Assembly (NCBI GenBank): GCA_029211095.1
Contig: JARGFS010000010.1
Coordinates: forward strand, 1-38,936
Length of the DNA stretch: 38,936 nucleotides
From: a bacterium
GTDB taxonomy: Bacteria > Zixibacteria > MSB-5A5 > GN15 > FEB-12
Direction: 5' to 3'
Part shown: in pieces, positions 20,772 to 33,404 of the stretch
How the letters are laid out: each line of letters starts with the position of its first letter
Position numbering within the stretch: position 1 is the stretch's first letter
The notes under the pieces: model-generated
Database searches by the model: none
Told to the model about the DNA's origin: nothing
The model's input: the letters and a program-made list of their open reading frames with translations, nothing else
Position numbers and translations under genes: made by a program

Positions 20772-21146
20772 ATAATTAGTTACACTTTAGTATATCGGCT
20801 TTAATCACAAAAACCTACGATTATTTTGGACAAACTGGGTCAAATATTGAAATTTTTTTGATTGTCCCTATTTTGGTCCCTGGAGGTCAAGGCCTGTTTG
20901 AGGCATAAGCTGATGTGCCGCAACAGGAACCTTTGCCACCACGGACAGAATATCTATCTGCTGTCCGATTTGTTCTTGGTGCTAAAGAAACTCGAAAACG
21001 GCCTGGTCATTCGGCAGGTGGGAAGTCCCATAATCTTGTGAGGAGGATGAATAGCATACTTGAACAAAACTAAGGAATACAACTCCAGGGGAAAGGAATC
21101 ATGGAGTGTTATCCCCTGGCCGTAATTCTGAATCTGCAGGAAAATC
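20772..21146. other. intergenic stretch without a supported gene
   Basis: About 375 bases between the RRM and bacilliredoxin promoters. It holds one clear inverted repeat, CGGACAG (20942-20948) and CTGTCCG (20961-20967), followed by ATTTGTTCTT, which looks like a weak terminator on the plus strand. Two open frames of about 60 codons cross it without ribosome sites or recognisable motifs. Confidence 0.4.
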
Positions 21147-21175
21147 TTGGAAAATCGTCATTTTGGATGTATACT
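21147..21175 (+). promoter_or_regulatory. sigma70-type promoter for bacilliredoxin
   Basis: TTGGAA (21147-21152), a 17-base spacer and TATACT (21170-21175). A start near 21183 leaves a leader of about 67 bases and excludes translation from the upstream in-frame start at 21106. Confidence 0.6.
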
Positions 21176-21249
21176 ATCCATGTTTCGCAATTGTAAGTTA
21201 CACTGATTTCAGACTATTTGATCAGGTATACAAAGAAAGGTACTACATT

Positions 21250-21762
21250 ATGCAGCCCCCCGTTTATAAAGCCGAAGCGGTTCGCCCCATGTGGGAAGAG
21301 TTGGCCCAGGTAGGAATCAAGCCGCTCACCACCGCTGACGAAGTTGATGAGTACGTCACAAAAAAAACAGGCACAACGCTGGTGGTCATTAATTCTGTCT
21401 GCGGCTGTGCGGCCGGTAATGCTCGCCCTGGCGCTATGCTGGCGTTACAGCACAAAACCATACCAGATCATCTGACCACTGTCTTTGCCGGAATGGATCA
21501 CGAAGCGGTAGATAGAGCCCGGTCCTATATGCCGGTTCCCCCTTCCTCCCCCTGTATCGGGCTGTTCAAAGAGGGACAGATGATCCATTCGCTGGAGCGT
21601 CGACAGATCGAACAGATGGATGCCGAAGAGATCGCCGAGAATCTCACCGCCGCTTTTGACAACTATTGCACGGCCCAAGGCCCTTCCTGCCCCCCGGAAA
21701 CATTCCAGAAGATAATTCCGGTCGATATGTGTGGTTCGGATGTTCCTCCTCATGTAGAATAG
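21250..21762 (+). CDS. BrxA/BrxB-family bacilliredoxin (DUF1094)
   Basis: A 170-residue thioredoxin-fold protein. The ATG at 21250 has AAAGG upstream and lies after the promoter. The family hallmark CGC motif is present in 'VVINSVCGCAAGNARPG' (Cys51, Cys53), with 'YMPVPPSSPCIGLFKEG' later. In Firmicutes, BrxA and BrxB remove bacillithiol from mixed disulfides on proteins after oxidative stress; the family is also common in Bacteroidetes-like bacteria. Additional Cys residues at the C-terminus (YCTAQGPSCPP, DMCGSD) are family-like. Whether this organism makes bacillithiol cannot be told from this window. Confidence 0.92.
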   Translation: MQPPVYKAEAVRPMWEELAQVGIKPLTTADEVDEYVTKKTGTTLVVINSVCGCAAGNARPGAMLALQHKTIPDHLTTVFAGMDHEAVDRARSYMPVPPSSPCIGLFKEGQMIHSLERRQIEQMDAEEIAENLTAAFDNYCTAQGPSCPPETFQKIIPVDMCGSDVPPHVE

Positions 21763-25512: not shown

Positions 25513-25769
25513 GACATCTCCGGCTCAGATCGCAATTATATTTGAACAATCCGGTGGTAAATAGGAATCTTCCAACAAGCTGTTTCTGGTGGTGAATCCA
25601 ATGAAGACCTATTGAGTATCGTACCCGATGCGCAGACCGCAGCTTCCGGTTGCTCTCCATGCAGAAGAAACAGGTGCGGCTTTAACAAATCTTAACAAAC
25701 CTAAGACTTTCCATCGTCGTAGTGATGTATTAATTGAGGGGAAACATACAAATAGATACTGGAGGTCCG

Positions 25770-27263
25770 ATGCTTTTCAAAAATACAGTTTTAACAAGCC
25801 TGACTGTTTTGGTTCTTTTGGCCAATTCGCCTTTTGCGGCGGATTCGGTAGAGTTCAAGCTGCCCGACACCAGAGTGGGTGAATTAACGGCTGAATTTAT
25901 CAAAGCTTTCAATTCCGGCGATAAAGAGCAATGGACAATGTTCATCTCTGAATACTGGAAACCTTCGGAGCAGGAGGGCGCCACCGAGCGACGTCTCGGC
26001 TTTTTTGAAATGCTGACTAATGACCTCGGCCCTATTGAACCGGTGATAGTTGAGAGTTCCGATGAATTCTCAATCCGCTTTCTCGCCCGGGGAACCGTGC
26101 CGCAGGGTCCTTTCGAGTGGATTAGGATCGGTTTCCAGATCGACACTCTGGCGCCCAATTTGATATTGCGTGCCTCGGCTGATCCCGGCGAAAACCCCAA
26201 GTACGCAATCCCCGAAGGAAAGCTGACTGACAAAGATATAGCCGCCTTCCTGGAAAAATACATGGCCGATCTGGCGGCAGATGATAAATTTTCCGGAGCG
26301 GCCATACTGGCCCGGGAAGGAGAACCAATTTTTGCAGGGGCTTTTGGTCTGGCCAGTAAGCGGTGGAACATACCCAACAAGCTGGACACAAAGTTTAACC
26401 TGGGTTCCATGAACAAGATGTTTACCTCTGTCGCCATTGCCCAGTTAGTCCAGCAGGGGGAGCTGTCTTTCGATGACAAGGTGGGTACGTACCTGCCTGA
26501 TTGTCCAAGTAAAGAGATCGCGGACAAGGTGACGATTCATCACCTCCTTACTCACACGTCAGGGATGCAGGATTACTGGGAAGAACTGTTCGATTCTCAC
26601 TGGTGGGAGATTAAAACTGTGGATCAGCTGGCCGCACTGATCTACGATGATCCACTGCTGTGCGAGCCGGGCGAAGAATTTCATTACAGCAACTCCGGGC
26701 CAATCGTGCTGGGCCAGATTATCGAGAAGGTAAGCGGCCGGAGCTACTATGACTATATCAGAGAAAATATATGCAAACCGGCCGGAATGATAAATACTGA
26801 CTGCTATGAAGTCGACACCCCGACGCCAAATCTGGCCATTGGATATACCAAAGAGACCTACACCGACAATGAGCCGCGCCCCGACCACTGGCGGAACAAC
26901 CTGTTTATGCATGCCTCCAAGGGCGGACCGGCCGGTGGAGGCTATTCGACGGTCGAAGACCTGATTCGGTTTGATCTGGCCCTGCACTCAGGGAAACTGC
27001 TGAGTAAAGAGTACGTGGATATCATCACCGCCGGAAAGGTGGAGATAGGTGGCCCGGAAATGAAGTACGGCTACCTCTTTGGCGATGAAAATTTTGATGG
27101 TATCCGGTCGGTCGGTCATAATGGGGGCGCACCCGGGATTAACGCCGAGCTTAAAATGTATGTTGACCTGGGTTACACCGTAGCGGTCATGGCAAACTAC
27201 GATATGGCCGCTGACCAGGTGGCCCACAAAATGGATGAGCTGATCCGGCAGCAACAGGAGTAG
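25770..27263 (+). CDS. serine hydrolase (beta-lactamase / class C family), secreted
   Basis: A 497-residue exported protein from the ATG at 25770 (GGAGG five bases upstream); the longer frame to 25734 only adds leader. The signal peptide is about 1-23. The first domain (about 35-140) looks like an NTF2-like module ('LTAEFIKAFNSGDKEQWTMF'), then the hydrolase: SMNK (Ser213/Lys216), YSN (306-308) and HNGG (450-453) in place of KTG, with 'HHLLTHTSGMQDYWEELF' and 'GGGYSTVEDLIRF' as further family marks. It is a second, distinct member in the window, and unlike the gene at 3076 it has its accessory domain at the N-terminus. Physiological substrate unknown. Confidence 0.9.
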   Translation: MLFKNTVLTSLTVLVLLANSPFAADSVEFKLPDTRVGELTAEFIKAFNSGDKEQWTMFISEYWKPSEQEGATERRLGFFEMLTNDLGPIEPVIVESSDEFSIRFLARGTVPQGPFEWIRIGFQIDTLAPNLILRASADPGENPKYAIPEGKLTDKDIAAFLEKYMADLAADDKFSGAAILAREGEPIFAGAFGLASKRWNIPNKLDTKFNLGSMNKMFTSVAIAQLVQQGELSFDDKVGTYLPDCPSKEIADKVTIHHLLTHTSGMQDYWEELFDSHWWEIKTVDQLAALIYDDPLLCEPGEEFHYSNSGPIVLGQIIEKVSGRSYYDYIRENICKPAGMINTDCYEVDTPTPNLAIGYTKETYTDNEPRPDHWRNNLFMHASKGGPAGGGYSTVEDLIRFDLALHSGKLLSKEYVDIITAGKVEIGGPEMKYGYLFGDENFDGIRSVGHNGGAPGINAELKMYVDLGYTVAVMANYDMAADQVAHKMDELIRQQQE

Positions 27264-27314
27264 TTCTATCCCGGAGCATCTTCTCTTTTGAAATTACAGT
27301 TAGAAGGATATATT

Positions 27315-27349
27315 CTCCTGTCCGATATATGTAGTGATCAAGACAGGAG
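27315..27349 (+). terminator. hairpin after the serine hydrolase gene
   Basis: CTCCTGTC (27315-27322) pairs perfectly with GACAGGAG (27342-27349) around a 19-base loop. There is no U run, so termination would be weak or factor-dependent. It separates the hydrolase from the metal-efflux operon promoter. Confidence 0.4.
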
Positions 27350-27395
27350 GCTTCCCTGAGCGAAATATCCGAATTTCAACCTGATAGGTCTACTA

Positions 27396-27424
27396 TTGAC
27401 TGATCGGACAATTACCCGTATATT
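27396..27424 (+). promoter_or_regulatory. promoter of the metal-efflux operon, possibly leaderless
   Basis: TTGACT (27396-27401), a 17-base spacer and TATATT (27419-27424). Initiation 7-9 bases later would fall at 27431-27433, that is at the ATG of the first gene, which has no ribosome binding site. Confidence 0.6.
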
Positions 27425-27432
27425 GACTTGAT

Positions 27433-27861
27433 ATGAGACTGAGACTCAAACATGCTTTGGCCGTAGGTGTCTGCCTGCTTCTTTTTGTCGGACTAAATTT
27501 CGGCAGCTTTGGAGGCGTGTTATGTGTAGGAGGTGATGGACACTTACAGGTTGAACCCGTCTGTGAGCCCGGATGCAATGAGGATGACTACGCCTGCTTA
27601 CCAGAGGTTTGTGACAGCGAAAGCGAAGATCACCAGGATTGCAAAAGCTGCTCTGATCTGCCTCTGGAGGGGCCTGTCTGGCACTGGCAGAAGAAAAAGT
27701 CCCTCACTCAACAAGAAAACTCAACTACCCATGATTGTACGGTCGCTTTGATACTCGATAATCAGAGCATCAACTATCCCTCTTATAAACAATTTCATGG
27801 TTCTCCTCCCCCCGAAGAGATCTCCGTCCATCTGATTTCCACATCCGTTTTTCTCTGCTGA
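27433..27861 (+). CDS. small Cys-rich exported protein leading the metal-efflux operon
   Basis: A 142-residue protein with an N-terminal hydrophobic segment (about 8-28) followed by 'GGVLCVGGDGHLQVEPVCEP' and a cluster of Cys residues (PVCEPGC, YACLPEVC, DCKSCSDL). I recall similar short proteins with a 'VLCxGxDGHxxxE ... CxDCxDxPL' pattern in front of CzcABC/CusABC-type systems in other phyla; this is from memory. The Cys cluster and the location suggest binding of thiophilic metal in the periplasm or at the membrane. The last 45 residues contain 'SPPPEEISVHLISTSVFL', which is also family-like. ATG has no ribosome site and sits at the expected transcription start. Confidence 0.72.
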   Translation: MRLRLKHALAVGVCLLLFVGLNFGSFGGVLCVGGDGHLQVEPVCEPGCNEDDYACLPEVCDSESEDHQDCKSCSDLPLEGPVWHWQKKKSLTQQENSTTHDCTVALILDNQSINYPSYKQFHGSPPPEEISVHLISTSVFLC

Positions 27862-27962
27862 TCCACCAGCAATAATTCAATCTCAGAATAGACAGATCAT
27901 TCGCACTCGTAGGAAGTGCGCTTGTATTGCTGTTTGGAAAAATTGTTGTGGAGAGAAAAGCG

Positions 27963-29264
27963 ATGAAAATAAAAATGCCCATACTCGCCTTCATGGCCGT
28001 ATGGTTGGTAACTCTGACTGCAAGTATAGCCGCTAATGACCGCTGGCAAAGCGGTTTGGAATCTAACGGCTCTGGTCAGATGGAAAAGAGCTCAGTTCTG
28101 ACCTTTGCCGATGTTCTCAAGCGGGTCGCCGCCAACAATCCGTTGCTTCGATCAGTCAGTTTCCGGAACGAGGCTGCCGCTAATCGTTTGGAGCAGGCAG
28201 GTCTCAAAAGCAACCCGGAATTTTCAGCCGAAATTGAGGAAGTAGGCTGGAATGCACCCGGATTCTCAGAATCTGAATTGACCATATCGTTGTCGCAGGA
28301 AATTGATATATTCGGCAAACGGAAGGCGCGCAAGAATGTCGCCTCGGTTGAATATCAATCAACTGACTTTAGCGGTAAGGTTCGGGCGTTTGACCTGTAT
28401 ATCGACACCAGAAACAGGTTCAACAAACTCCTTCATGCCCAGAGATTTGCGGTTCTGGCCGCATCTTCGGTGCGACTGGCCGAAAATATCGTGGAAGGGC
28501 TTGAATACCGCGTAAGTCGTGGTGTCACTCTTCGATCAGACCTGCTTCTCGCCCAGCTTGAACTTCAGAGAATTATCCTTACTGATGAAGAAGCGCAGCA
28601 GGAGTTGGCTGGCGCCCGGCTTGCCCTGGCCGCACTATGGAACAGCAGCTCGGTCGATTTCACACTCTTTGCACCTGAGGAGCCCGACCTGCAACCGGTC
28701 CGCAGGAAACTGCCTACGCTGCTGAAGCAGATTGATTCAACCAGAATAGTGCGGGAATCACAGTACGATAAAGATATCCTGCAGGCCGGAATTGCCCTGG
28801 CCGAAGCCGAAGCAAAACCGACGCTGACTCTGGGTGGCGGTTTCAAAAGACTCCAGTTGGACAATTCCAAGTCATTTCTCTTTGGAGTCTCAATTCCACT
28901 TCCATTGTTCAATCGCAACCAGGGAGAGATCGCCGCTCTTAAGGCATCGTTGAACTCCAAAGAGTATGAGCAGGCACAGGCCAGGACAGAGACCATGGCT
29001 TATATTAGGATGACAACAGCCCGCCTGGACCAGCTTTTCAGCCGACATATAGCTCTTGATACTCTGCTGCTGCCTATTGCCGAGCGTGCCTATGCCAGCC
29101 TTGAGGAGACGCACAAAGTTGGACGCTTGCCATACACCACGCTGTTAGAGGCAGAACGCTCCCTGATTGAATTACGGTTTGAACACAATGATGTCCTCTT
29201 TGAAATCAATGAGCAGCTGGTAGCTCTGGAGCAGATAACAGGCATAAAAATGCATGACCAATAA
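27963..29264 (+). CDS. outer-membrane efflux channel, TolC/CzcC/CusC type
   Basis: A 433-residue outer-membrane factor. The ATG at 27963 is preceded by GGAGAG and gives a signal peptide (about 1-25). Two TolC-type repeats are visible, with 'FADVLKRVAANNPLLRSV' and 'NRLEQAGLKSNPEFSAEIEE' in the first and 'AEAEAKPTLTLGGGFKR' and 'GVSIPLPLFNRNQGEIAALK' in the second. The second motif is typical of the CzcC subgroup. It is 17 bases upstream of the adaptor gene. It would form the exit duct of the tripartite metal-efflux pump. Confidence 0.92.
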   Translation: MKIKMPILAFMAVWLVTLTASIAANDRWQSGLESNGSGQMEKSSVLTFADVLKRVAANNPLLRSVSFRNEAAANRLEQAGLKSNPEFSAEIEEVGWNAPGFSESELTISLSQEIDIFGKRKARKNVASVEYQSTDFSGKVRAFDLYIDTRNRFNKLLHAQRFAVLAASSVRLAENIVEGLEYRVSRGVTLRSDLLLAQLELQRIILTDEEAQQELAGARLALAALWNSSSVDFTLFAPEEPDLQPVRRKLPTLLKQIDSTRIVRESQYDKDILQAGIALAEAEAKPTLTLGGGFKRLQLDNSKSFLFGVSIPLPLFNRNQGEIAALKASLNSKEYEQAQARTETMAYIRMTTARLDQLFSRHIALDTLLLPIAERAYASLEETHKVGRLPYTTLLEAERSLIELRFEHNDVLFEINEQLVALEQITGIKMHDQ

Positions 29265-29281: not shown

Positions 29282-30271
29282 ATGAAAATATTGATGGTAA
29301 TTATCTCACTGGCCCTTCTCGCTCTGACGCCAGTCTACACAACCGCACAGGATGATCATGATCGTCATGATCATGGTGCGGAAGCGCCAACCCATGAGGA
29401 TGCGGCGCCAACCGGAGACCACGATGGTCATGAAGATGAATTAGTTGTGGAACTCTCTGCCGAGTCTGCCCGATTGGCCGGAATAGAGATTTCAACCGCT
29501 GTAACCGGACATGTTGACAGGACTGTCGATTTGCCCGGTGAGATAGGATTTAACGAGGACAGACTTGCGCATATCGCACCGCGATTTGCCGGTGTTGCCC
29601 AGCAAGCCAGGTTTCGTGTTGGAGACTATGTCAGCAGAGGTGACACGGTAGCCATTGTGGAGAGCAATGAGAGTATGAACAATTACTCAATCACGGCTCC
29701 TATCTCCGGTTGGGTTTTGGAAAGACATATTACTCCGGGGGAATTTGTCTCCGAAGAAAATAGTATTTATCTGATTGCTGATCTCTCCACCGTCTGGGTC
29801 AATCTGGCTGTCTACCCCAAAGATGCCGGACAAGTGAAAAAGGGACAGTCGGTAAAAATCTCCGCCATCGGATCAGAGAATGTCACTTCCGGAACTATCG
29901 AGTACATCACGCCGATTGTAGATCTTCGCACCCGAAGTCTCACCGCGCGCATCACTCTTTCCAATCCGGACAATCTCTGGCGTCCCGGATCGTTCGTCCT
30001 CGGGAAAATTGCTGCCGAATCGGGTACGAAAGGTCTGATCATCGAAAAAAGTGCGGTGCAGTACCTGGATGAGAAGAGCGTAATTTTTCTCCTTGATGGA
30101 CCCAACCGATTCAGGCCGGAGGAAGTGACCACCGGAGATAGCAACCAGACCATGGTTCAACTGTTGACCGACATCGGCGAGGGGACCAGGTACGTTTCCA
30201 AAGGTGCTTTTGAGCTCAAAGCCAAAATAGTCACCAGTAATCTGGACGCCCATGCGGGCCATGGCCATTAG
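29282..30271 (+). CDS. periplasmic adaptor of heavy-metal efflux RND system (CzcB/CusB type)
   Basis: A 329-residue membrane-fusion protein with a signal peptide (cleavage near TTAQ) and GAGGT before the ATG. A His/Asp-rich segment follows the signal ('DDHDRHDHGAEAPTHEDA', 'GDHDGHEDE') and the C-terminus is HAGHGH; both could bind Zn, Ni, Co or Cu. The core has the adaptor order: 'GEIGFNEDRLAHIAPRFAGV', lipoyl-like 'YSITAPISGWVLERHITPGE', beta-barrel 'VWVNLAVYPKDAGQVKKGQ' and 'LTARITLSNPDNLWRPGSFV'. The stop codon overlaps the long frame of the pump gene by a few codons; the pump ATG is 14 bases after this stop. Confidence 0.93.
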   Translation: MKILMVIISLALLALTPVYTTAQDDHDRHDHGAEAPTHEDAAPTGDHDGHEDELVVELSAESARLAGIEISTAVTGHVDRTVDLPGEIGFNEDRLAHIAPRFAGVAQQARFRVGDYVSRGDTVAIVESNESMNNYSITAPISGWVLERHITPGEFVSEENSIYLIADLSTVWVNLAVYPKDAGQVKKGQSVKISAIGSENVTSGTIEYITPIVDLRTRSLTARITLSNPDNLWRPGSFVLGKIAAESGTKGLIIEKSAVQYLDEKSVIFLLDGPNRFRPEEVTTGDSNQTMVQLLTDIGEGTRYVSKGAFELKAKIVTSNLDAHAGHGH

Positions 30272-30284
30272 CGCTGGGATAAAC

Positions 30285-33200
30285 ATGAAAAATTTATTTG
30301 AGTTAATACTGAAAAACCGTCTGATCGCAGTAATGCTGCTGTTGGGCATATTTGCCCTGGGGTCGCTCAGCTACCGGCAGCTGCCTACCGATGCTTTCCC
30401 GGACATCTCCCCCGTTATGGTGCCGATATTTGCCGAGGCACACGGTATGGCCCCGGAAGAGGTTGAGCGCCTGATTACCTTTCCGATAGAATCAGCCATG
30501 AATGGTCTGCCCGGAGTGCGACTCATCAAGTCAACTTCGGCATTCGGAATGTCTGTCATATATGTCTATTTTGAAGATAACGTTGACATCTATTTCGCGC
30601 GACAAATTGTATCCGAACGGTTGGCCAGCGCCCGCGGTGATCTTCCGGAGATGCATGAACAGCCCGGATTAGGCCCGATCTCCACCGGATTGGGCGAGGT
30701 ATTTATGTATTATCTTTCGGCTGACAGTACGGTTGAGACGGACGGGAAACCGCTTGACACTTACCTGCGCGAAATCAACGACTGGTCCATAAAATATCAG
30801 TTGCAGTCAGTCCCCGGAGTGACCAAAATTCTGTCCATGGGCGGCCATGTATTGCAGTACCAGATCAAGATCAACCCCTATGCGCTCAACAAATATGGGT
30901 TTGGTCTGGAAGACATTGTAGAAGCGGTCTCCAACAATAACCGGAATGCCGGCGGCCAGTTTCTGGTCCTGGGATCAGAAGAGTATCTTGTTCGGGGGAT
31001 CGGACTGCTGGAGAAGCGGGATGATCTGGCCAACCTGCAGCTGGAAGTGGTCAATGGAACCCCGATCCGATTGGGAGATGTAGCCGAAGTTGACTTTGGA
31101 AAAGAGATACGAAGAGGGGTGGTCACCCGAAATGGGGAAGAAGAGATTGTCGCCGGAATTGTGATGAAACTCTATGGCACCAATACTTCGGAAGTGATTG
31201 AGGGATTAAACCGGAAAATCCCGGAAGTACAGAACTCATTACCCCAGGGAGTCCACCTGGTCCCCTACTACAACCAGTCGGCTCTGGTCAGCAACGCCGT
31301 TAACACGGTTCGGGAGGCACTCTTCTACGGCGGGTTTCTGGTGGTGCTGGTGTTGGTGATGTTCCTCGGAAATATCCGGTCCGCCTTCATCGTCTCCCTT
31401 GCTCTACCGATTTGTGCCCTGATCGCGGCAATCTTCATGAACGGCGCTGAGATGTCGGCAAATCTTATGTCGTTGGGGGGGATCGCCATTGCTATCGGCC
31501 TCCTGGGGGATGCATCAATCGTGATTGTTGAGAACATCTACCGGCAACTGGGCGAAAGGAATAATGAAGAGAAGAGCAGATTTGAGATTATTGTCGCTGC
31601 CTGCACCGAGGTGGCCCGACCTATAATCTTTTCCGTCTCCATTATCATTATTGTCTTTTTGCCCCTGTTCACTCTGGAAGGTGTGGAGGGAAAGATGTTT
31701 TCACCGATGGCCTTCACAATAACATTTGCTCTTCTGGGCTCACTTGTGGCCGCATTGGTGATTTCTCCCGTCCTTTCCTCGTTTCTGTTAAAGAAAGGGG
31801 TCAGACGAGAATTTTTCCTGGTTAATCTGCTCAAAAACAGCTACCGACCCATTCTAAAATATGTCCTGAGGTTCCGGGCGATCATTTTGGCCGTTACTCT
31901 GGTGGTCTTCATTGGTACTCTGGCTATGGTTCCATATCTGGGGACGGAGTTTATTCCAACCCTTGAAGAGGGAGCTATTCAGATTAACGTGACAATGGCC
32001 CCGTCAATATCACTGGTCAAAGCGACTGAGACGATTATGCGGCTGGAAAAGGTTGTTATCGGCTTTGATGGCGTACAGCAGACGGTGGCGAAGATTGGTC
32101 GGCCCGAAGCTGGCAGCCATCCCCATCCGGTAAACTCTTCTCACATCCAGGTGATGCTCAAGCCGCCGGAAGAGTGGCGAGTGTACCGCTCCAAAGAGGA
32201 GTTGGTGGAAGCGTTAAATCAGAAACTGTCCGACTATCCCGGGGTTCAATTGGTTTTTTCGCAGCCGATACAGAGCATGTTTGATGAACTTCTTTCCGGA
32301 GTCAAAACCCAGCTGGCTATCAAGCTGTATGGCGAAGACTTAACGATCCTCAGGACCAAATCAGAAGAGATCAAAGAACTAATCCAGCCGGTTGAAGGTC
32401 TGGTTGATCTTTCGACCGAGCAGAGTTTTGGCCAGCCGCAGGTGCAGATTGTTGCCGACCGTGAGGCCTGCGCCAGGTATGGTGTTGATGTTTCCGGTAT
32501 TCTGGACGTGGTTGAGCTGGCTATCGGCGGTGAAGTAATTTCTCAGATATTCCTCAACACCCGGCGCTTTGGGATATATGTGCGTTATGACGAGTTGTAT
32601 CGCAAGGACCCGGAATCAATCAGGAATCTTCTGGTCCACGCCTCGGATGGCGTACTGCTTCCCCTGTCACAGGTGGCCGAAGTAAAAACGATAGTCGGCC
32701 CGATCCAGATCAACCGTGAAAAAAACCAGAGGCGCTGGATAATTTCCGGAAATGTGCGGGGACGTGATATGGGTGGGGTGGTCTCGGACATTAAAGGGCT
32801 GGTACAAGAGAGGATTGAACTTCCCCCCGGCTATTATGTTGAGTACGGAGGACAGTTTGAAAATCAGGAGCGAGCCATGAAGCGGCTTGGTATTATTGTA
32901 CCGGTTACGCTCTTTTTAATCTTTCTCCTGCTATACATGTCATTCGGCAGCATTAAGAGCGCTACGCTGATATTCATAAACGTCCCTCTCGCCCTGATCG
33001 GCGGAGTCTTGGGGTTGTATTTCACCGGTGAGTATCTCTCGGTCCCGGCCTCGGTCGGGTTTATCGCCCTGTTTGGTATCGCCGTTCAGAATGGCCTCGT
33101 GCTGGTCTCATATATAAATCAGCTTCGTGACAATGGTCTTCCGACCGAAGATGCAATAACCGAAGCCTGCATGCTTCGCTTGCGTCCGGTACTAATGACA

Positions 33201-33404
33201 GCCCTGACAACGATCCTCGGGCTGGTGCCGCTACTGCTGTCGCATGGAATGGGTTCCGAAGTTCAGCGGCCGTTGGCGGTGGTAGTGGTTTTTGGCCTGT
33301 TGTCTTCGACCTTCCTAACCCTGGCTCTCATTCCTGCTCTTTATAGCTGGTTTGCTCCAAAGCAAGTAGTAAAGGAAGTGCAAACCGATCAGGCGGTGTT
33401 TTAG
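30285..33404 (+). CDS. heavy-metal efflux RND transporter (CzcA/CusA family)
   Basis: A 1039-residue inner-membrane pump with twelve predicted helices and two large periplasmic loops. It begins 'MKNLFELILKNRLIAVMLLL' and contains 'LPTDAFPDISPVMVPIFAEA', 'GLEDIVEAVSNNNRNAGGQF' and 'YVEYGGQFENQERAMKRL', all HME-RND marks. Helix 4 reads 'GGIAIAIGLLGDASIVIVEN' with Asp409 and Glu416 for proton relay; the upstream position is Ala403, as in copper/silver CusA, not the extra Asp of CzcA. However, of the three CusA metal-binding Met positions only one seems kept, and 'MFDELLSGVKTQLAIKLYGE' is CzcA-like. Substrate is therefore open between monovalent and divalent metals. Last gene of the operon. Confidence 0.94.
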   Translation: MKNLFELILKNRLIAVMLLLGIFALGSLSYRQLPTDAFPDISPVMVPIFAEAHGMAPEEVERLITFPIESAMNGLPGVRLIKSTSAFGMSVIYVYFEDNVDIYFARQIVSERLASARGDLPEMHEQPGLGPISTGLGEVFMYYLSADSTVETDGKPLDTYLREINDWSIKYQLQSVPGVTKILSMGGHVLQYQIKINPYALNKYGFGLEDIVEAVSNNNRNAGGQFLVLGSEEYLVRGIGLLEKRDDLANLQLEVVNGTPIRLGDVAEVDFGKEIRRGVVTRNGEEEIVAGIVMKLYGTNTSEVIEGLNRKIPEVQNSLPQGVHLVPYYNQSALVSNAVNTVREALFYGGFLVVLVLVMFLGNIRSAFIVSLALPICALIAAIFMNGAEMSANLMSLGGIAIAIGLLGDASIVIVENIYRQLGERNNEEKSRFEIIVAACTEVARPIIFSVSIIIIVFLPLFTLEGVEGKMFSPMAFTITFALLGSLVAALVISPVLSSFLLKKGVRREFFLVNLLKNSYRPILKYVLRFRAIILAVTLVVFIGTLAMVPYLGTEFIPTLEEGAIQINVTMAPSISLVKATETIMRLEKVVIGFDGVQQTVAKIGRPEAGSHPHPVNSSHIQVMLKPPEEWRVYRSKEELVEALNQKLSDYPGVQLVFSQPIQSMFDELLSGVKTQLAIKLYGEDLTILRTKSEEIKELIQPVEGLVDLSTEQSFGQPQVQIVADREACARYGVDVSGILDVVELAIGGEVISQIFLNTRRFGIYVRYDELYRKDPESIRNLLVHASDGVLLPLSQVAEVKTIVGPIQINREKNQRRWIISGNVRGRDMGGVVSDIKGLVQERIELPPGYYVEYGGQFENQERAMKRLGIIVPVTLFLIFLLLYMSFGSIKSATLIFINVPLALIGGVLGLYFTGEYLSVPASVGFIALFGIAVQNGLVLVSYINQLRDNGLPTEDAITEACMLRLRPVLMTALTTILGLVPLLLSHGMGSEVQRPLAVVVVFGLLSSTFLTLALIPALYSWFAPKQVVKEVQTDQAVF

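Follow-up and report, generated by a model that had tools for sequence, protein, structure and literature searches.

Among the closest described systems is CruR of Bordetella pertussis, where copper is sensed by a CxxC motif whose distance to an arrest motif at the C-terminus is fixed; the spacing between this CxxC and the RAPP motif is kept to within 1-2 residues in more than 2000 proteins and has been shown to matter (PMC9426467). A second system is CutF, a leader exported through Sec and bearing a metal motif, which raises translation of the next gene by way of a stem-loop masking the ribosome-binding site (RBS); numerous leaders located 5' of OEP (outer-membrane channel) genes are already included in the survey in the same text, and CzcI, a small protein encoded 5' of czcCBA, is suggested there to be a metal-sensing regulator (PMC9973294). 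As far as the accessible texts extend, our literature search found no paper on a metal-responsive nascent-chain arrest peptide that governs RND efflux.

Here we describe a leader gene from a Candidatus Zixiibacteriota MAG, located in a stretch of 38,936 nucleotides that is called the window below. We consider it probable, with a good deal of room for doubt, that this leader is a cis-acting nascent-chain metal sensor that switches on the pump encoded downstream. The features of the locus are the following.

27396..27424, + strand: sigma70-type promoter TTGACT-N17-TATATT, 10 of 12 positions matching, -10 box ending 8 nt 5' of the leader ATG
27433..27861, + strand: leader ORF, ATG start, 142 aa, an exported Cys-rich protein with homologues and conserved Cys
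27433..27513, + strand: N-terminal signal or membrane helix, residues 1-27, from the sequence and an AlphaFold2 helix at residues 2-22 (pLDDT 84-87)
27520..27555, + strand: motif LC(I/V)GxDGHxxxE, residues 30-41, C31 and E41 invariant in 21 relatives
27574..27576, + strand: C48, second of the conserved Cys sites, which most relatives occupy with CC
27640..27657, + strand: motif CxxCxD, residues 70-75, a putative metal site, C70, C73 and D75 invariant in 21 relatives
27658..27831, + strand: linker (ruler), variable in sequence and fixed in length, with the last residue 67 aa beyond D75
27832..27858, + strand: C-terminal motif LISTSVFLC, a candidate arrest motif, immediately 5' of the stop codon
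27862..27878, + strand: predicted 5' arm of helix P1, directly after the stop codon and complementary to the RBS of the pump gene (duplex -13.9 kcal/mol)
27902..27920, + strand: core of hairpin P2, CGCACT/AGTGCG, indicated by the central z-score and by covariation in relatives
27937..27953, + strand: predicted 3' arm of P1, from duplex prediction, over the GGAG Shine-Dalgarno sequence (27950-27953) of the outer-membrane channel gene
27963..29264, + strand: outer-membrane channel gene (OEP, CusC/CzcC-like; Pfam OEP, 1.1e-31)
29282..30271, + strand: periplasmic adaptor, CusB/CzcB-like, with a His-rich N-terminus (Pfam HlyD_D23; NCBIfam IhpB closest, below its cut-off)
30252 or 30285..33404, + strand: RND metal-efflux permease of the CusA/CzcA family (TIGR00914; ZneA/CusA alignment)

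The leader ORF is a real gene and not a chance reading frame, as is evident from its homologues, from Cys residues retained at the same places and from purifying selection between relatives (dN/dS approximately 0.18 in the Cys core, 0.34 in the linker and 0.21 in the last 10 residues). The positions conserved overall are C31, E41, C48, C70, C73 and D75, in the order LC(I/V)GxDGHxxxE ... CC ... CxxCxD, and the invariant residues of the cross-phylum alignment are C31, G33, D35, H37, C73 and D75. Ten Cys are present in the window leader, at residues 14, 31, 44, 48, 55, 60, 70, 73, 102 and 142, seven of them between residues 31 and 73. The preliminary description had reported at least ten Cys clustered after a membrane-type N-terminus; the cluster is borne out, and the count is corrected to nine because one Cys sits within the N-terminal hydrophobic helix.

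Homologues of the leader occur in 22 of 61 related genomes. Profile searches recovered relatives in 36 of 133 Zixiibacteriota genomes and in the phyla of the matched Poribacteria (39 of 85 genomes), Hydrogenedentota (25 of 68), Planctomycetota (30 of 246) and Verrucomicrobia (7 of 195) records, so that the family spans at least five phyla. As a single query against genome contigs the window leader had no match; a trimmed alignment of the family did find records there. Plasmids searched with this leader and with a Sumerlaeia relative yielded none. One locus, in a Candidatus Abyssobacteria SURF_17 record (L083), carries a leader and a gap very close to those of one genome in the window's own family, the leader sharing 83% protein identity with that of L009; because of this closeness, the contig may have been binned wrongly or transferred recently.

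Searches of Pfam, NCBIfam and the PDB with the window leader gave no match. Weak Pfam matches to SAND_ULT1 (E 0.16) and to nematode insulin (E 0.0023, one member), as well as an NrfH match in one member of the family, were set aside as Cys-driven chance. The AlphaFold2 model of the window leader, built on a shallow alignment of 16 sequences, is of low confidence (mean pLDDT 53.9), and on that alignment secondary structure is absent beyond residue 42 and a fold beyond about residue 50.

The leader had been described from the start as heading an RND metal-pump operon, and Pfam and NCBIfam assignments confirm that genes for an outer-membrane channel, an adaptor and an RND permease follow directly downstream. 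For the channel gene, the ATG at 27963 is favoured over a TTG at 27927, and relatives begin at the equivalent MKxK; the RND protein matches the HME-RND model TIGR00914 with 1045 bits against a cut-off of 701. Homologues, picked for the neighbourhood counts by leader sequence alone, lie mostly beside efflux genes and not away from them. In Zixiibacteriota, 30 of 35 leaders adjoin pump genes (29 precede the outer-membrane channel gene and one the adaptor gene), and pump genes likewise adjoin 22 of 25 leaders in the Poribacteria set, 21 of 25 in the Hydrogenedentota set and 7 of 8 in the Verrucomicrobia set; adjacency is weakest in the Planctomycetota set, at 11 of 24. The other five Zixiibacteriota leaders comprise two at contig edges and three that keep different company, two preceding an HMA-domain lipoprotein gene in a cluster that contains HupE/UreJ and one standing directly after an RND gene.

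The pumps downstream of leaders fall into two subtypes. In the window pump, the CusA Met triad M573/M623/M672 is replaced in the alignment by N579, S629 and E679, and a Glu aligned to a site Glu of ZneA is kept; at the triad columns, none of the 14 readable pumps downstream of leaders has the Met triad. Because the triad is missing and the ZneA-aligned Glu is retained, the substrate of the window pump is probably a divalent metal rather than Cu(I), to judge from the alignment.

Several arrangements around these genes merit mention in their own right. At one locus (L039, G021:C127, 2684-7413), the leader-channel-adaptor-RND operon is immediately preceded by an RND gene of CusA type that has the Met triad, so that two pumps, the first of Cu type, stand in tandem. 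At another (L042, G020:C10, 7823-14493), two members of the leader family flank one channel-adaptor-RND operon; after the second comes a gene for a 211-aa protein of unknown family that has CGPNCPVC close to the N-terminus. The leaders before the HMA lipoprotein gene (L045, G031:C18, 8202-10951, and the corresponding part of L046, G003:C42) share their cluster with an exported, His-rich protein, encoded upstream of the HupE/UreJ gene, whose last residues are RGPPFIA or RGPPSLS; two different leader families thus stand in one cluster, the His-rich one resembling the His-rich CutF-like clusters already described. In the window itself, a beta-lactamase-family protein (PF00144) is encoded on the same strand at 25734-27263, immediately 5' of the leader promoter, and an ORF at 21106-21762 contains VINSVCGCAAG, which resembles a bacilliredoxin (BrxA/YphP) active site.

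Downstream of the Cys core the leaders keep their length and not their sequence. By direct counting, 67.4 +/- 1.4 aa (n=39) separate the CxxCxD Asp from the C-terminal residue; the CxxCxD-to-end spacing is 67.5 +/- 1.2 aa in Zixiibacteriota and has a median of 67 in 98 proteins from all phyla. Over 592 Zixiibacteriota pairs compared without gaps from the C-terminus, identity in the linker is 9%, near random, versus 38% in the last nine residues. Most of 118 members, across phyla, end in L-(R/S)-(T/S)-(T/V)-(V/I/T)-L-(L/R)-(I/C)-stop, a C-terminal motif that is, to our knowledge, unlike any characterised arrest sequence. A linker of random sequence and fixed length, together with an end conserved at the stop codon, fits the needs of a nascent-chain sensor. 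The ribosomal exit tunnel holds approximately 30-40 residues of nascent chain, and some 20 more are required to cross the membrane; by these lengths, the Cys motifs would stand at the periplasmic mouth of SecY when termination is reached.

Promoters with at least 9 of 12 matches precede 27 of 35 Zixiibacteriota leaders; among control ORFs, taken from the same loci and at least 200 aa long, 7 of 215 have one. The -10 box lies 8 nt from the ATG in 18 of the 27 Zixiibacteriota leaders with a promoter match, a spacing that is not general in other phyla. Because transcription starting 6-8 nt past the -10 box would yield an mRNA that begins at the AUG or just before it, promoter position suggests that the Zixiibacteriota leader transcript is probably leaderless.

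RNA folding and pairing were computed for Zixiibacteriota loci, in which the gap between the leader stop and the pump start is conserved at approximately 95 nt (mostly 87-117 nt); in Poribacteria it is about 200 nt. An Rfam scan of 27200-28100 gave chance matches only, and the leader region is thus without a known riboswitch. The Zixiibacteriota gaps are stabler than dinucleotide shuffles (mean z -2.0 for the whole gap and -2.19 for its centre; 16 of 30 with p < 0.05). P1 of the window sets UCCAC (27862-27866) against GUGGA (27948-27952) (-13.9 kcal/mol, p = 0.014 versus composition shuffles), and other lineages pair UUCUUUCAUCU against AGAUGAAAGGAA between the post-stop segment and the RBS. 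The pairing probability of the post-stop segment with the Shine-Dalgarno and start region is 0.49 in Zixiibacteriota versus 0.16 in shuffles, and in the window the post-stop/RBS value is 0.76 versus 0.18. When shuffling preserves the base composition of the post-stop segment, only 6 of 30 loci stay at p < 0.05, so the P1 pairing partly reflects nothing more than a run rich in pyrimidines opposite an RBS rich in purines; p-values combined over loci are moreover too strong, since the loci are related. Blocking the first 14 nt opens the RBS by a small mean gain of 0.06 versus 0.01 in shuffles, and at the window locus no gain is seen (-0.01). The two-helix covariation score is 0.255 versus 0.197 +/- 0.022 and is beaten by 5 of 500 shuffles, with changes on both sides in 8 of 15 hairpin pairs and in only one P1 pair. 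The RNAalifold consensus contains the central hairpin and lacks P1, and for 22 sequence-aligned gaps RNAalifold gave no consensus. Masking of the pump RBS by P1 is accordingly treated here as suggestive only.

The mechanism that we propose starts from what was computed, namely the family, the operon, the spacing, the C-terminus, the promoter position and the capacity of the gap to fold and pair; metal binding, arrest, the direction of the switch and the identity of the metal are inferred. Transcription would begin at or beside the AUG to give a leaderless mRNA, and the N-terminal signal would direct the nascent chain into the Sec channel. Once translation has reached the stop codon, some 67 residues would separate the LC...CC...CxxCxD motifs from the peptidyl-transferase centre; this should bring the motifs to the periplasmic opening of the Sec channel, where bound metal could alter the pull on the nascent chain. 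The hydrophobic C-terminal motif would then stall or slow the ribosome at or just before termination, and a ribosome halted there would hide the first ~12 nt past the stop, that is, the 5' arm of P1, and so free the Shine-Dalgarno sequence of the pump gene. Without metal, the leader would be completed, exported and degraded, and the Shine-Dalgarno sequence would remain masked. Induction by metal is what would be expected for an efflux pump and agrees with the direction of CutF.

Other readings of the locus account for parts of these data. A stable periplasmic metal chaperone or sink of the CusF or SilE kind, which hands metal to the pump or buffers it, would make sense of the signal peptide, the conserved Cys/Asp/His motifs and the adjoining pump genes; we regard it as unlikely, however, given that a fixed-length linker of random sequence and a conserved end next to the stop codon would serve no evident purpose in such a protein, that the gap to the next gene is conserved and structured, that the PDB search found no solved structure like it, and that AlphaFold2 shows no fold past residue ~50, albeit from a shallow alignment. 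For the window leader, no Pfam or PDB sequence match and no confident fold indicates similarity of the CusF/SilE type. The preliminary description had offered a metal sensor, a chaperone or a sink: of these the sensor survives, as a cis-acting leader, whereas the fixed ruler, the conserved end and the lack of a fold speak against a stable periplasmic sensor, chaperone or sink.

The leader could also work through transcription, arrest or its relief governing access of Rho or an attenuator in the gap, and here CruR provides a precedent (PMC9426467). The terminator-like hairpin at 27902-27920 and the Poribacteria gaps of about 200 nt fit such control, but the hairpin has no proper T-run (its tail is CTTGTATTGC), terminator-like sites show no clear excess (2 versus 0.8 +/- 0.8 in shuffles) and the Zixiibacteriota gaps are short, which makes this quite unlikely in our estimation. 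Periplasmic tail-specific proteases are attracted by nonpolar C-termini, so the leader might instead be a small secreted protein whose nonpolar end is a degradation tag and whose role in signalling is an unrelated one, for example a CzcI-like modulation of metal regulation. The suggestion that CzcI is a metal-sensing regulator, made in the CutF report (PMC9973294), lends this some plausibility, but the 67-residue ruler and the conserved gap are left unexplained, and we think it very unlikely.

If the leader is indeed a cis-acting nascent-chain sensor, metal sensing by a nascent exported chain would not be peculiar to the DUF2946 copper leaders; a second sequence family would have this capacity and would control RND pumps in phyla with scant genetics, and 'hypothetical Cys-rich exported proteins' of this type would be regulators rather than chaperones. 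The 67-residue ruler and the stop-codon motif offer testable predictions and a candidate new arrest sequence.

As to known systems, the preliminary description had placed the leader outside the standard Czc/Cus model, which is half right: the DUF2946 model (PF11162) is not matched, and yet the comparable CutF, CruR, CopL and CzcI have been published (PMC9973294, PMC9426467). Among the families listed, PF11162 found no match at E <= 1 in the 21 and 16 aligned members of the leader family, and it is absent from 21 genomes of the window's relatives. Two traits of DUF2946 are present, a CxxC in the mature part (C70 and C73) and a fixed spacing from CxxC to the C-terminus, longer than that of CruR. 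The third, RAPP or PP in the last 15 residues, occurs in 5 of 41 members (13 of 41 have PP in the last 24) and not in the window leader, where PPP sits 16-18 residues from the C-terminus. Because the Pfam model is unmatched and the PP/RAPP end is missing, the leader family should not be filed as DUF2946.

With CruR (Bp2923, DUF2946), the leader shares an exported protein of ~145 aa at the head of an operon, a CxxC and a fixed spacing to a C-terminal motif, and metal-dependent control of its own translation arrest, a property of CruR, is proposed here; the two differ in that CruR carries RAPP three residues before its end, 45 residues from its CxxC, whereas the present family ends in LRT(T/V)(V/T)L(L/R)(I/C), ~67 residues on, and in that CruR represses a TonB-dependent transporter through Rho and the DUF2946 model is unmatched here (PMC9426467). 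CutF of Rhodobacter capsulatus (DUF2946-like) is likewise a Sec-exported, Cys-containing leader with a stem-loop masking the next RBS, masking that is only predicted here, and CutF-like proteins most often stand upstream of the OEP genes of RND pumps, as the present leader does (PMC9973294). In the same text, however, the CutF-like list demands PP in the last 15 residues, a feature rare in our family, and its members belong mostly to Pseudomonadota and Bacteroidota, unlike ours; a probable leaderless mRNA and the conserved LCIGxDGHxxxE further distinguish the present leader from CutF as described there (PMC9973294). Overlap of the leader family with one of the survey's clusters may nevertheless exist. 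CzcI of Cupriavidus metallidurans, compared by its description in that text only and of unsettled role, is also small, is encoded directly 5' of the czcCBA RND operon and is without a C-terminal proline motif (PMC9973294).

SecM, VemP and MifM are exported leaders on which a stalled ribosome exposes a downstream RBS, as is proposed for the stall here, but they sense export or insertion activity and not metal, and their arrest motifs are unrelated. That the family forms a class of its own among metal-responsive arrest leaders, spread over several phyla, with LCIGxDGHxxxE and CxxCxD motifs, a 67-residue ruler, a stop-codon stall at LRT(T/V)(V/T)L(L/R)(I/C), leaderless expression in Zixiibacteriota and divalent-metal RND pumps as targets, is a tentative proposal to which we give slightly less than an even chance. 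The most economical reading by analogy is that the leader would work as the CruR and CutF leaders do, set apart from DUF2946 by the Pfam model and by its C-terminal motif.
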